Source of the DNA: Burkholderiaceae bacterium
GTDB lineage: Bacteria > Pseudomonadota > Gammaproteobacteria > Burkholderiales > Burkholderiaceae_C
Direction: 5' to 3'
Length of the DNA stretch: 64,000 nt
Assembly: GCA_024710165.1 (NCBI GenBank)
Contig: JANJVG010000207.1
Span: forward strand, 1 to 64,000
Position numbers and translations under genes: made by a program. Under the pieces are notes generated by a model. The model saw only the letters and a list, made by a program, of their open reading frames with translations, was not told where the DNA came from and did no database searches. Positions within the stretch are counted from its first letter, which is position 1. Every line of letters starts with the position of its first letter. This document shows positions 2,110 through 59,179 of the stretch, in pieces.

Positions 2110-3978
2110 TCAAAGGGTCTGCACGGCTTTACCTGCCAGTGCCTGGCGGATACCCCGGTTCATGCGCTGTGCAGCAAAAAACTCCGTGGCCTGCGCAAGC
2201 GTCTGTGTGGCGGCCTCCAGGTCTGCGGCCTCGCAAGTGGTAGACATCAGGATCCGCAGGGACTCCATGCGCGCATCAATCGCAGCCCGGTCGTCCTCGG
2301 TCAGAAGGTCGGCATCGGCGTCAAGCGCGCTTTGGGTGGCGATCAGCATACGGTCAGCATCCACACGCGCTTCGACCAATGCGCGCGCCTGCATGTCCTG
2401 AGCCGCAGTGGCAAAACCCTCCTGCAACATGCGCGCAATCTGCTCGTCGCTGAGGCCGTAGCTGGGCTTGACGGCGATCTGCGCCTCCACACCGCTGATC
2501 TGTTCACGCGCATTTACGCTCAGCAGCCCGTCGGCATCCACGGTGAAAGTGACTCGGATGCGGGCTGCACCCGCCGCCATGGGCGGAATGCCGCGCAGCT
2601 CGAAACGCGCAAGGCTGCGGCAGTCCTGCACCAGATCACGCTCCCCCTGCACCACATGCAGCGCCAACGCAGTCTGGCCGTCTTTGTAGGTCGTGAAGTC
2701 CTGCGCCTTGGCAGTGGGTAGGGTTTCATTGCGGGCCACGATGCGCTCGACCAGGCCACCCATGGTCTCGATGCCCAGTGAAAGCGGAATCACGTCCAGC
2801 AACAGCAGGTCACCCGCCATGTTGTTGCCAGCCAGCTGATTGGCCTGAATGGCGGCTCCCAGCGCCACCACTTCGTCCGGGTTCAAATTGGTGAGCGGTT
2901 CGCGGCCAAAAAAGTCGGCTACTGCCCGCCGCACCTGCGGCATGCGCGTGGAACCGCCCACCATGACAACGCCCTGCACGTCATCGCGCGCAAGCTGAGC
3001 GTCACGCAGTGTGCGGCGTACCACCGCCAGGGAGCGGGCCGTCAGATCGGCCGTGACCGCATCAAAGTCACTGCGTTTCACGTCAAATCGCACTTCAACG
3101 CCCGCCAGTCGGGCGCTAAAAGCTACTTTTTCTGTAGCAGTCAAGGCCTCTTTGCAGGCCCGTGCGGCCAGGCGCGCAGCGGTCTTGTCGGTGGCCGTCT
3201 CTGCCTCGAGCCCCAGTTGGCCCAGCACCCAGTCGGAGAGCAGCGCGTCGTAGTCATCACCGCCCAGGGCCGAATCGCCCCCCGTGGCCAGCACCTCGAA
3301 GACGCCCTGTGTCAGCCGCAGGATGGAAATATCAAACGTTCCACCGCCCAGGTCGTACACGGCGTAAATGCCCTCGCTGGCGTTGTCCAGGCCATAGGCG
3401 ATGGCAGCGGCTGTCGGCTCGTTGATGAGGCGCAAAAGATGAATGCCCGCCAGTTGTGCTGCATCCTTGGTGGCCTGACGCTGGGCATCGTCGAAATACG
3501 CCGGTACGGTGATCACGGCACCGTACAAGTCGTCGTTGAAAGTGTCTTCGGCTCGGTAGCGCAGCGTTACCAGTATCTCGGCGCTCACTTCGACCGGCGA
3601 TTTGAGGCCACCCAGGGTGTCGATACTGACCATGCCACCACCCGCGTCACTGCCTACCAGGTCATAGGGCAGCTTGCCGGGCAGGGCAATGTCGGCGAGC
3701 CCGCGGCCCATGAAACGCTTGACCGAAGCGATGGTGTTGCGCGCATCGGTGTGCTGCATGGCAGCAGCGTCATGGCCGATCTGGCGACCACCGCCAGCCA
3801 GGTAGCGCACCACGGATGGAAGCAGCACCCGGCCCTCACCGTCGGGAAGACACTCGGCAACGCCATTGCGCACCGCAGCCACCAGTGAATGCGTGGTCCC
3901 CAGATCGATGCCCACGGCAATACGCCGCTGGTGGGGGTTGGGGGACTGGCCGGGTTCGGAAATCTGCAGCAGCGCCAT
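2110..3978 (-). CDS. hscA: Fe-S cluster assembly chaperone HscA (Hsp70 family)
   Basis: Specialised Hsp70 that, with HscB, releases the cluster from IscU to acceptor proteins. The predicted protein has 622 residues. The N-terminal ATPase domain carries the phosphate loop IDLGTTHS near residue 30 and [11 protein letters not shown] near residue 215; a substrate-binding domain and helical lid follow. I start at the ATG at 3978, preceded by AGGAA at good spacing; an in-frame ATG at 4026 would add 16 residues without homology. The coding region contains a short stem-loop (3117-3165) resembling the interspersed repeat found elsewhere in the window. Confidence 0.95.
3117..3165 (-). repeat. Possible degenerate copy of the interspersed repeat, inside hscA
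   Basis: GCTAC-TTTTTCT-GTAGC hairpin followed by AGTCAAGG and a GC-rich tail, resembling the A/T-loop end of the repeat family. The central arms are poorly kept, so this may be chance similarity. It is read in frame within hscA. Confidence 0.35.
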
Positions 3979-4044
3979 GGGTTCCTGTCGTGTCGGGATC
4001 TGTGCCTGCACAAGCAAGGCACGCAAATGCGGTGATTCGGGACT

Positions 4045-33740: not shown

Positions 33741-36700
33741 ATGGGAGACAACCACACCGCCACAGGCACCCAAGCGCCCGCCGACCACGCCGCCGCCACC
33801 GCCACCGCCGCCCACGCCTTCATCCAGCGCTGGAGCGGCACCACCGCCAGCGAGCTGGCCACTGCGCAAAGCTTTGTGATGGACCTGTGCCAGCTGCTCG
33901 GTGTGGACAAACCCCACCCCACGCCCGAGCAAAGCTACATGTTCGAGCGCCCCGTCACCTTCACGCATGGCGACGGCAGCGCCAGCAGCGGGCGCATTGA
34001 CTGCTACCGGCGCGGCCACTTTGTGCTGGAGGCCAAAAAGCTCAAGGCCGGCAGCCACACCAAGGGTTTTGACGACGGCCTGCTGCGCGCCCGCAGCCAG
34101 GGCGAGGCCTACGCCCGCGCCCTGCCCGCGCAAGAGGGCCGCCCGCCCTTCGTGCTGGTGGTGGACGTGGGCACGGTGATTGAGGTGTATGCCGAGTTCA
34201 GCCGCAGCGGCGGCACCTACACCCCCTACCCCGACCCGCGCAGCCACCGCCTGCAGCTCGCCGACCTGGCCCGGCCCGAGGTGCAAGACCGCCTGCGCCG
34301 CATCTGGACCGACCCCGAAAGCCTCAACCCCGCACGCATCAGCGCCCAGGTCACGCGCGACGTGGCCGCGCTGCTGGCGCGGCTGTCGCAGTCGCTGGAG
34401 GGCGGAGGCAACGCAAATACCAAGCAAAATCAGCTTCAAGCCCTTGTCAATCAAGCGCCAGTAGCTCCTGACATCGTAGCAGCCTACCTCACCCGCTGCC
34501 TGTTTTCAATGTTTGCCGAAGACGTGGAGCTGCTGCCCAAAGGCGCCTTTCTGGGCCTGCTGCAAACCCACCGCGACGACCCCGCCACGCTGCAGCACAT
34601 GCTGCGCATTTTGTGGACCGACATGGACCGGGGCGGCTTTTCTGCCGCGCTGGCAAGAGAAGTGCTGCACTTCAACGGCAAGCTGTTCAAAGGCGCGGGG
34701 AAAGACGGCTACAGCCTGCGGCTCACGCCCGAGCAGGTGGACCTGCTCATAGCAGCCGCCCGCGCCAACTGGCGCGAGGTCGAGCCCGCCATCTTCGGCA
34801 CCCTGCTGGAGCGCGCGCTCGACCCCGCCGAGCGCCACGCCCTGGGCGCGCACTACACGCCCCGCGCCTATGTAGAGCGGCTGGTGCTGCCCACCGTCAT
34901 CGAACCCCTGCGCGCCGACTGGGCCAACGCCCAGGCCGCCGCCCTGGTGCTGGCCCACGAAGCCGCCGCGCTGCAAGGCAAGGCGGCAGACGCCAAACTG
35001 GCCGAAGCCCGCGCCGAGGTCAAAAAATTCCACCATCAGCTGTGCACCACCCGCGTGCTCGACCCAGCCTGCGGCAGCGCCAACTTTTTGTACGTGACGC
35101 TGGAGCACCTGAAGCGCCTGGAGGGCGAAGTCGTCAACCAGTTGGAGGAACTCGGCCACACGCAAGACCAGCTCGGCTTTGAAGGCGAAACCGTCACCCT
35201 GCAGCAACTGCGCGGCATCGAGCTGAACGAACGCGCCGCCGCCCTGGCCGAACTCGTGCTGTGGATTGGCTACCTGCAATGGCACATCCGCACCCGGGGC
35301 GCCGCCAGCGTGGCCGAACCCGTGGTGCACAACTACGGCAACATCGAATGCCGCGACGCCGTGCTGGCCTGGGACGCGCAGGAAGTGGCGTACGACGCCC
35401 ACGGCCAGTTGCTCAGCCGCTGGGACGGCACCACGTTCAAAACGCACCCTGTCACCGGCGAACAGGTGCCCGACGAAGCCGCCCAGGTGCCCCAATGGCG
35501 CTACGCGGGTGCCCGCCAGGCGCAGTGGCCGCAGGCGGATTTCATTGTGGGGAACCCGCCGTTCATTGGCGCCGCCAGCATGCGCGCTGCCCTGGGCGAC
35601 GGCTACGTGCAAGCACTGCGCGGCGCCTGGCCCGAGGTTCCGGAAAGCGCCGACTTTGTGATGTTCTGGTGGCACCACGCCGCCGCCCAAGTGGCCGCAG
35701 GTCACACGCGCCGCATGGGCTTGATCACCACCAACAGCCTGCGCCAGACGTTCAACCGGCGCGTGGTGCAGGCCGCGCTGGACAAGGGCTGCCACCTGCT
35801 CATGGCGATTCCCGACCATCCGTGGGTGGATAGCGCCAACGGTGCTGCCGTGCGCATTGCCATGACGGTAGCCGCGCCCGGTGCGGGCGAAGGGCAGTTG
35901 TTCACGGTAAGGGACGAGCAGCCCGGCGAGCATGGAGAGATGGCCGTCACACTGTCAGAGAGCACGGGCGTAGTTCACGCCGACCTCAGCAGCGGTGCCA
36001 ATGTGGCCAGCGCACTTGGATTGCGCGCCAATGAAAACCTCAGCAATCGGGGCGTACAGCTTTTTGGCGCGGGCTTTATCGTCACACCGGAAGAGGCCAA
36101 CGCACTGCATAGCCCACAACTCATACGCGACTATCGCAACGGGCGCGATCTCACCGCAGAGTCGCGCAATGTGATGGTGATTGATGCCTTTGGCGTGTCC
36201 GCCGAACAACTGCGTGCGCAACATCCCGCCGTCTATCAATGGCTGCTGGAAAAAGTCAAACCCGAGCGCGACCAAAACAACCGTGAGAGCCGCCGCAAAA
36301 ACTGGTGGCTTTTTGGCGAAACCAACCCAAAGCTGCGCAAACAGCTAGCAGGACTGCCCCGCTACATCGCTACCGTCGAAACCGCTAAACACCGCACCTT
36401 TCAATTCCTCGACGCCAGCATCCTGCCGGACAACATGCTGGTCGCCATTGCGGTGAATGACGCTTACACATTGGGCGTGCTCTCCAGCCAATTGCACATC
36501 GAATGGGCGCTCGCAACCGGTGGCACGCTGGAAGACCGCCCCCGCTACAACAAATCCCGCTGCTTCGAAACTTTCCCCTTCCCCGACGAAGACACCGGCC
36601 TGACCCCGCCACTGCGCGAGCGCATCGCCCACCTGGCCGAGCAGATCGACCAGCACCGCAAGCGCGTGCTCGCCCCCGAATCCGGCAACACCGGCCTCAC

Positions 36701-37292
36701 CCTCACCGGCCTCTACAACGTGCTGGCAGCCCTGCGCGAAGGCCGGGCGCTCACGGCCAAAGAGAAAACCCAGCACACCCAGGGCCTGGTGGGCGTGCTG
36801 CGCGAGCTGCACGACGAGCTGGACGCGGCTGTGCTGGCCGCCTACGGCTTGAGCGCCACGGCGGGCACCGACGACATCCTGGCCCACCTGGTGCAGCTCA
36901 ACACCCAGCGCGCGGCAGAAGAGGCCCAGGGCCGCGTGCGCTGGCTGCGGCCCGACTTTCAAAATCCGCAAAATTCACTGCAAAAACAGGAGCTGCTGGC
37001 GCACGAGGATCAAGCGCTGGATGCCTATTCGGATGGTGAAAAACCACTATCAAAACCAGAGCAAACCAAGCCCCAGCAACTCCCCTGGCCTGCCACCTTG
37101 CCCGAGCAGGTGCGCGCCGTGGCCGCCGTGCTAGCCGCCAGCCCCGCGCCGCTCACATTGAGCGCCATCGAAGCGCGCTTCAAAGGCCGTGGCCCCTGGA
37201 AAAAGGGCCTGCCCACGCTGCTGCAAACGCTGGAGGCGCTGGGCCGGGCGCAGGCGGTGCCCACCGGGGGCGAAGTGGCCTGGCGCGGCTGA
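33741..37292 (+). CDS. Single-chain restriction-modification enzyme, MmeI-like (type IIL/IIG)
   Basis: 1183 residues. An N-terminal PD-(D/E)xK nuclease is suggested by [17 protein letters not shown] (D87, E97, K99). A helical spacer with [23 protein letters not shown] leads to the gamma-class N6-adenine methyltransferase: SAM motif [11 protein letters not shown] near residue 440 and catalytic NPPF near residue 604. A target-recognition region and FPFPD near residue 945 follow; the C-terminal 90 residues look like a winged helix. One protein would both cut and methylate, with one recognition region setting specificity. Two interspersed repeats are translated inside it (residues about 228-247 and 1079-1097). 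Confidence 0.85.
34426..34482 (+). repeat. Interspersed repeat copy inside the MmeI-like gene (first)
   Basis: Plus strand: AAAATCAGCTTCAAGCCCTT, GTCAAT, CAAGCGCCAGTAGCTCC and ATCGTAGCA. Reads in frame as [17 protein letters not shown], in the same frame as the copy inside gluQ. Confidence 0.82.
36979..37029 (-). repeat. Interspersed repeat copy inside the MmeI-like gene (second)
   Basis: Read on the minus strand: AATAGGCATCCAGCGCTTGA, TCCTCG, TGCGCCAGCAGCTCCTG, TTTTTGCA. Opposite orientation to the first copy in the same gene; translated on the plus strand as [16 protein letters not shown] in the linker before the C-terminal winged-helix region. Confidence 0.78.
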
Positions 37293-57113: not shown

Positions 57114-58208
57114 ATGCCCCCCAGCAACACCACCCGCGCCCCCCGATCCCGCAGCCCACGCGCCGCCAAGGCGCCCCGCAGCATCGCCGTGCTGGGTGCC
57201 GGCATGGCCGGCGTGGCCTGCGCACGCACCCTGATGCAGGCCGGCCACCAGGTGAGCGTTTTCGAAAAGGCCGATCATCCAGGCGGACGCACCACCACGC
57301 TACAAACCCCCTTTGGCGGCTTTGATGCCGGCGCCCAGTATTTCACGGTGCGGGACGACCGCTTCACCCAGGCCTTGGCCACAGTGCCCGACATGTGCCG
57401 CCCCTGGAGCGCCAACACCGTGCGCGTGCTCGATGCCACCGGCAAGGTCGTCGCCGCCAGCCCGCTGCCCAAAGACGCGCACTGGGTTGCCCGCCCCGGC
57501 ATGGGCAGCCTGGTAGACGCCTGGGCCCAGCCGCTGCAGCAGGCCGGCTGCCTGCACACTGGCACCCATGTGCTGCGCATCGAACCCGACCGCCTTGCCC
57601 CGCAGCGCTGGCAGGTGTGTACCGAGTCTGCCGCAGGAGAACAGCATGTGTTTGCCGGTTTTGATGCCGTGCTGCTGGCCCTGCCCGCCCCGCCCGCCCG
57701 GGCGCTGCTTGACAACAGCGGCGTAGGCGCAAACCTGGCCCAGGCCATGGCACACGTGACGATGGCCCCTTGCTGGACCCTGATGCTTGCGTTTCCCCAG
57801 GCGGTACGCCCGGACCTGACCACGCTGGGGCCGCAATGGAACGCTGCCCGCAGCACACACCACCGCATCGCCTGGCTGGCCCGCGAATCGTCCAAGCCTG
57901 CACGCAGCATCATCGAACGCTGGACCGTGCAGGCCAGCGCCGACTGGTCCGCCGAGCACCTGGAGGACGACGCCGAACGTGTGCAGGCCAAGCTGAGCAA
58001 GGCGTTCTCCGAAGTCACGGGCATCCGCGCCGAACCGGCACACGCGCAAGTGCACCGCTGGCGCCATGCACAAACCCTTGAGCCTCTGGGGCGCAGCCAC
58101 CTGTGGGACGCACAGGCGGGCATCGGTGTCTGCGGCGACTGGTGCCTGGGCCACCGCGTTGAAGACGCCTTTATTTCCGGTCTGGAACTGGCACTCACCG
58201 TGGCATGA
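57114..58208 (+). CDS. FAD/NAD(P)-dependent oxidoreductase (renalase-like)
   Basis: 364 residues. N-terminal dinucleotide-binding fold [30 protein letters not shown]-like loop [12 protein letters not shown] and [12 protein letters not shown] are typical of the amine-oxidase/renalase branch; the C-terminal [19 protein letters not shown] completes the FAD site. Substrate unknown. Start at 57114 (MPPSNTT); the in-frame ATG at 57063 is less likely. Its stop overlaps gluQ's start (ATGA). Confidence 0.88.
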
Positions 58209-59179
58209 CGGCACAGGGCTACATCGGCCGGTTCGCGCCCTCGCCCACCGGGCCGCTGCATGCCGGATCGCTGGTGGCGGCCCTGGCCAGCTGGCTCGAT
58301 GCGCGGGCCTGGAACGGGGGGCGCGGCGGCCGCTGGCTGGTGCGCATCGAAGACATTGACACCCCGCGCTGCAGCACCGGGGCGGCCGAGCGCATCCTGG
58401 CCCAGCTGGCCATCTGCGGCATGCTCCCGGACGAGCCTCCCGTCTGGCAGTCGCAGCGCAGCCCGCTGTACCAACGGGCGCTGGACGCTCTGGTGGCCCG
58501 CCAGCTGGCCTACCCCTGCGCCTGCTCGCGCAAAGACATCGAGGCGGCCCATGCGGCCGCAGGCGAGGCGCGCCAGCGCCACACGGAGCTGCCCTACCCC
58601 GGCACCTGCCGCAACGGGCTGCAGGGCCGGCCAGCCCGTGCCTGGCGCTTCGCCACCACCCACTACATACAAAAAGCGCATCAAGCCCTTGCCAGTCAAG
58701 CGCAAGCAGCTATGTTTTTTATAGTTGATAACACGCTGTGCTGGCACGATCGCCGCCTGGGCGCACAACAGCAGGATGTGGTGCACCGCGTGGGCGATTT
58801 TGTGTTGCGACGCGCCGACGGGCTGTGGGCCTACCAGCTCGCGGTGGTGGTGGACGACGGCGCACAAGGCATCACGCACATCGTTCGCGGGGAAGATCTG
58901 GCCGACAATACCCATCGCCAGCTGCTGTTGCAGCAGGCCCTGGGTCTGAGCCCGCCCCGCTACCTGCACACCCCGCTGGTGCGGGGTGCGGATGGTGAAA
59001 AGCTCTCCAAGCAGCATGGTGCCGCACCGCTGGAGCTTGCCCGGCCTGTGCAAGCCCTGCAGGCAGCGGCCGCCGTGCTGGGCCTGCCCGAACTGCAGCA
59101 TCCCTGCAACACCCGCCCCAGCGAGGCACTGGCCCAATGGGTCAAGGCCTGGATGCATCTCTACAATCAGATACCGTGA
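58205..59179 (+). CDS. gluQ: Glutamyl-Q tRNA(Asp) synthetase
   Basis: 324 residues, somewhat longer than the usual 290-310. It attaches glutamate to the queuosine at position 34 of tRNA-Asp. HIGH-equivalent in [17 protein letters not shown]-equivalent in GEKLSKQ, and zinc-site cysteines in CACSRKDIE with PYPGTC. The anticodon-binding part of GluRS is absent, as expected. Odd: residues about 154-174 ([18 protein letters not shown]) are encoded by an interspersed repeat inserted in frame. Coupled to the oxidoreductase upstream (ATGA) and trmB downstream (GTGA). Confidence 0.93.
58669..58724 (+). repeat. Interspersed repeat copy inside gluQ
   Basis: Plus strand: AAAAAGCGCATCAAGCCCTT, GCCAGT, CAAGCGCAAGCAGCTATG, T run, ATAG. 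Same orientation and same reading frame as the first copy inside the MmeI-like gene, giving QAL..QA..A in both proteins. Confidence 0.85.

Follow-up and report, generated by a model that had tools for sequence, protein, structure and literature searches.

MmeI (5hr4; PMC4833311) joins a nuclease, a spacer, a gamma-class methyltransferase, a target recognition domain (TRD) and a helical bundle in one chain, and a residue code that links amino acids of the TRD to the bases of the target has been described for it (PMC4833311). In the portions of the sources consulted, Rickettsia palindromic elements (RPE) and REPs are described as lying in frame within functional protein genes (PMC10969869, PMC3733652). 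In the Burkholderiales, the short interspersed repeat BRE is sometimes found wholly within coding sequences (PMC3110155). The DNA analysed here, a stretch of 64,000 nucleotides from a Burkholderiaceae bacterium (the window), carries on its plus strand, at positions 33741-37292, a gene for a single-chain restriction-modification protein of the MmeI family with 1183 amino acids, assigned by its ORF, Pfam, PADLOC and a fold match. The order of its parts is like that of MmeI. Judged from its sequence, the enzyme is a further representative of this family (Type IIL, a form of Type IIG), not previously known. Taking into account the evidence below, we consider it very probable that the gene encodes an intact MmeI-family restriction-modification enzyme with a predicted target ending in CGAC, whose linkers tolerate decayed copies of a Comamonadaceae repeat.

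The frame can start at ATG 33741, which was the start used in the preliminary description of this DNA, and is open further 5' from GTG 33597. Four Pfam domains were over the cut-off in this single ORF, all of them on the plus strand as are the features that follow them: MmeI_N (E 6e-23) for the N-terminal PD-(D/E)xK endonuclease, residues 24-220 (33810-34400); MmeI_hel (E 9e-14) for the helical spacer, residues 246-316 (34476-34688); MmeI_Mtase (E 2e-31), together with motif conservation, for the gamma-class N6-adenine methyltransferase, residues 422-707 (35004-35861); and MmeI_TRD (E 2e-13), together with alignment to MmeI and covariation, for the TRD, residues 791-949 (36111-36587). The C-terminal helical bundle, residues 956-1062 (36606-36926), was assigned as MmeI_C-like from its predicted helices, since the Pfam MmeI_C match had an E of 0.03-0.11 and was under the Pfam cut-off. 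The PADLOC profile REase_MTase_IIG (PDLC03627) covered residues 24-1172 with 1416 bits.

Residues D70, E80 and K82 of the MmeI nuclease correspond to D87, E97 and K99 here, which were kept in 49 of 49 distant relatives and which, with DPACG, N448 and NPP, were essentially invariant in 81 aligned relatives. The motifs DPACGSANF, NPPF (motif IV) and FPFPD are located at residues 441-449, 605-608 and 945-949. The preliminary description had placed nuclease, methyltransferase and TRD in one MmeI-like chain, as Pfam and PADLOC now do in one ORF, and the nuclease residues, the SAM motif and FPFPD are where it had located them. It was also right that in the SAM motif (ACGSAN, motif I) Ala replaces the second Gly, which it regarded as unusual; the residue was seen in 20 of the 32 burkholderial relatives and in 4 of 49 others, and is therefore a variant of the clade and not an oddity.

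The AlphaFold2 model of the 1183-residue protein had a mean pLDDT of 82, and the closest fold found by Foldseek was MmeI 5hr4 (E 1e-29, TMt 0.64), which was also the sole solved relative turned up by sequence. MmeI is shorter, with 919 residues against 1183, and of these two proteins only the one studied here has the winged helix and the two repeat-derived linkers. The predicted winged helix, residues 1111-1183 (37071-37289), was supported by a model pLDDT of 88, by fold matches and by subfamily conservation. Its matches in the PDB were mostly winged-helix domains, the best with a TM of about 0.67 and none with E <0.001. The domain, of about 73 residues, had been anticipated as an extra one at the C-terminus. 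It is kept throughout the subfamily, Bacteroidota and Verrucomicrobiota included, and is therefore extra only in relation to MmeI itself. It may take part in DNA or partner binding.

Considering that the residue code of MmeI (PMC4833311) could be applied by alignment, we read the specificity residues of the TRD, which are the pairs E880/N898, M899/R935, T881/L930 and E931/R933; their counterparts in MmeI are E751/N773, A774/R810, T752/L805 and E806/R808. All of these match except Ala774, whose place is taken here by the bulky Met899, so that G and not R would be predicted at position 4. The read-out would thus be C:G at position 3 (E880/N898), G:C at position 4 (M899 with R935), methylated A at position 5 (T881/L930) and C:G at position 6 (E931/R933), and the target predicted from the code has CGAC at its end. 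The specificity positions covary in the family (EN, MR or KV, EDR or GND), which supports the assignment of residues to bases. The read-out spans positions 3-6, and MmeI residues 642/645, which correspond to bases 1-2, fall in a gapped stretch of the alignment. The preliminary description had given the target as unknown; because the code is readable at positions 3-6, the target can be predicted in part, the first two or three bases excepted. In the TRD (residues 690-945) pS was 0.64, about twice the 0.25-0.34 of the other domains, as would be expected if TRDs are swapped by recombination, and this suggests exchange of TRDs among relatives.

The two inserts of the protein are located in linkers that contain repeat-derived sequence. 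Linker 1, residues 223-240 (34407-34460, plus strand), connects the nuclease to the spacer, and linker 2, residues 1077-1110 (36969-37070, plus strand), connects the helical bundle to the winged helix. Both have low pLDDT, and the inserts lie where the model has its two longest internal stretches of low confidence, residues 223-237 and 1077-1110, with pLDDT <50. To study the repeat, 15 copies that all lie outside the gene were aligned and made into a covariance model (R1), which comprises 56 positions around GCTGCTNGCGCTTGATNGATAAGCGCTNGAGGC. Of the two copies in the gene that R1 found, copy 1 (46.3 bits, E 1.1e-10) lies at 34425-34480 and is antisense to the gene, on the minus strand, and copy 2 (25.4 bits, E 6.9e-5) lies at 36977-37032 on the gene strand. 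The two opposed repeats proposed in the linkers were thus recovered by an independent model. The edge of copy 1 overlaps the codons of the conserved APDIVAA stretch, and by BLAST this copy matched 6 other sites of the genome; the element of copy 2 recurs at linker 2 in more than 10 related genomes.

Across the window R1 had eight copies at E <1e-4, two of which are those inside the gene. In the whole genome, where 150 of about 3000 candidates were scored, all 150 matched, which gives at least 150 copies. In 351 kb of burkholderial loci there were 69 matches, a number of which are a single palindrome counted on both strands, and in 596 kb of loci from other groups R1 found nothing at E <0.3. 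The ~56-nt palindromic repeat is confined to Comamonadaceae. When lower-ranked genomic copies were sampled, 4 of 40 were within likely genes, according to a coding-potential test that gives a rough estimate; the sampled copies are mostly intergenic and therefore, on the same rough estimate, two copies in one gene are unusual. Repeat copies were also seen in other likely genes of the window, at 58670-58725 (ORF 58205-59179, plus strand) and at 3083-3138 (ORF 2110-4026, minus strand). A repeat finder also listed short direct and inverted repeats inside the gene; these were discarded, being mostly of low identity and typical of GC-rich coding DNA.

By comparison with 14 related genes, pN/pS was 1.11 for insert 1 and 0.67 for insert 2 (residues 1079-1100), compared with 0.22-0.36 in the domains, and the inserts are therefore under little or no constraint. 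In 49 distant relatives linker 1 is empty, and SLE and VAA are just a few residues apart; an example of an empty linker 1 is SLEASGHAPQHVAAY of Thiomonas (L069). It could be argued that the inserts are ordinary variable linkers that resemble the genomic repeat by chance, since linker 2 also varies in length among distant relatives and the score of copy 2 is modest (25 bits). We regard this as highly improbable: R1, an independent model, detects both copies with E of 1e-10 and 7e-5 over 64 kb, the same elements are present at both linkers in many related genomes, and BLAST matches them to genomic copies. The orientations are the same throughout the clade, which could be due to a single ancestral insertion of each copy or to a use of the repeats that has gone unrecognised. 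We considered homologous inversion between the opposed copies, about 2.5 kb apart, and rejected it, as the copies are ~56 nt long and diverged and the gene would be destroyed.

The preliminary description missed a wider pattern, which is that in related species linker 1 takes unrelated repeats and also frame-shifting tandem repeats. In Acidovorax soli (L008) it contains an in-frame REP-like element that matches 10 other places of the genome, and in Comamonas badia (L080) an in-frame element with about 40 further matches, many of which are both strands of one place. In another relative (L022) a short in-frame element of the ATTCCCGCGCAGGCGGGAATCC type adjoins a degenerate copy of the ~56-nt repeat. 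It was also possible to see tandem repeats in the same linker, namely CAGAA x16 in L092, where the gene is on the minus strand, GACGG x4 in L013 and at least 11 units of GTCCAGCA in L015 (L015:1-95), running up to the contig end. These units, of 5 or 8 nt, are frame-shifting, and the bacteria that carry them are Acidovorax-like. Linker 1 is thus a recurrent landing site, where no fewer than four repeat families, besides three tandem repeats, occupy the same few codons. At the linker after the TRD, around codon 1014, one relative (L016) has a (GCCACA)x12 array that lengthens the protein in frame, and other relatives have long Ala/Pro/Thr-rich inserts in the same place. Our literature search, of partial coverage, found no description of the ~56-nt repeat or of one linker gathering several repeat families.

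These arrays raise the question of whether linker 1 is a hypervariable phase-variation switch, in which captured repeats and tandem arrays between the nuclease and the methyltransferase would let frameshifts turn the gene off and on, and of which the insert of the present gene would be a remnant fixed in the ON state. Phase variation has been described for Type IIG enzymes (PMC4889913), the frame-shifting arrays of L092, L015 and L013 are at precisely this linker, and the gain or loss of one CAGAA unit in L092 ends the frame at residue 274 or 511 and not at 1218, so that phase variation is possible in that relative. However, the gene studied here has no tandem repeat at linker 1 and its frame is open throughout, and most relatives have inserts that are not tandem, which makes a remnant of a switch a doubtful reading of its insert. 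That linker 1 of the Comamonadaceae is at once hypervariable and put to use, by on/off switching or by a changed reach of the tethered nuclease, we likewise consider unlikely. We favour tolerated insertions into a flexible linker.

The protein might also be the methylation-only part of BREX (PglX) or DISARM (DrmMI) and not a restriction enzyme, taking into account the weak PglX and partial DrmMI profile matches and the RefSeq name of the plasmid relatives, just 'DNA methyltransferase'. The PD-ExK nuclease domain is conserved, however, and the IIG profile, matched in full length, scored 1416 bits, far ahead of the 228 bits of DrmMI. No gene of BREX or DISARM was recognised in those neighbours that were looked at, and the upstream genes that were compared are conserved in related genomes. 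Such an identity is thus very hard to credit, and the reading as a restriction-modification enzyme is retained in what follows. The chromosomal setting is stable, with the upstream genes likewise beside the gene in three related loci (L009, L016 and L024). In one related genome (G014; L160, G014:C39:46000-54000) only the last ~135 codons are left at the same site, repeat copy 2 included, and this remnant is the scar of a lost copy of the enzyme.

When 150 related genomes were sampled, 51 had a relative of the enzyme at any similarity. Relatives were also found on 46 plasmids, and among phage records there was none at the threshold used. Many Comamonadaceae and Rhodocyclaceae have a relative, as do Pontibacter, Rhodobacter and Verrucomicrobia, among further groups. 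The same genome has a second MmeI-family gene, a frame of 1041 codons on the minus strand (L162:3067-6189, G000:C185), whose linker also contains an in-frame copy of the repeat (L162:3431-3486, 58.8 bits) that is missing from several relatives. A weak repeat-like match in this second gene (L162:5046-5101, 18.6 bits) was not accepted, as the gene has the same length there as in its relatives and the match may be due to chance.

Based on the likeness to MmeI, the mechanism that we propose is the following. An asymmetric site, probably with 5'-CGAC-3' at its end, would be presented by the single TRD to the methyltransferase, and in the DNA of the host itself the adenine of one strand would thereby be methylated. 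Foreign DNA that lacks the modification would be cut: the N-terminal nuclease, held by a flexible tether, would pair with the nuclease of a second bound molecule, and the cuts would fall about two helical turns downstream, the MmeI family being characterised by cleavage at about 20/18. The repeat copies, now decayed, would have inserted in frame into the unstructured linkers that flank the spacer-methyltransferase-TRD core, and their persistence would be due to the capacity of both linkers to accommodate additional residues, which implies tolerance and not benefit. Linker 1 is the counterpart of the nuclease tether, which would explain its tolerance of repeats.

The partial CGAC target allows the reach of the MmeI code into the longer, winged-helix subfamily to be tested. 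Linker 1, in turn, is a natural record of repeat insertion in a single linker of one enzyme, and it is suited to studying how short repeats enter genes while sparing them and whether such insertions ever turn into switches. By comparison with the PADLOC profile PDLC03627, the protein belongs to the same subfamily and does not differ in kind, the profile length of 1136 being close to that of the protein without its N-terminal tail. As with the RPE, a dispersed palindromic repeat lies inside a reading frame and is absent from the gene copies of relatives. RPE and REPs are similar, as far as the consulted portions of those sources go, in that short palindromic repeats are in frame inside genes; they are of a different family, the repeat described here being exclusive to Comamonadaceae and mainly intergenic where sampled, and those portions make no mention of several repeat families recurring in one linker of a single enzyme (PMC10969869, PMC3733652). 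BRE is about 75-91 bp long with 69% GC (PMC3110155), whereas the Comamonadaceae repeat has ~56 nt, mostly 32-55% GC in the sampled genomic copies, and is much more abundant than BRE.
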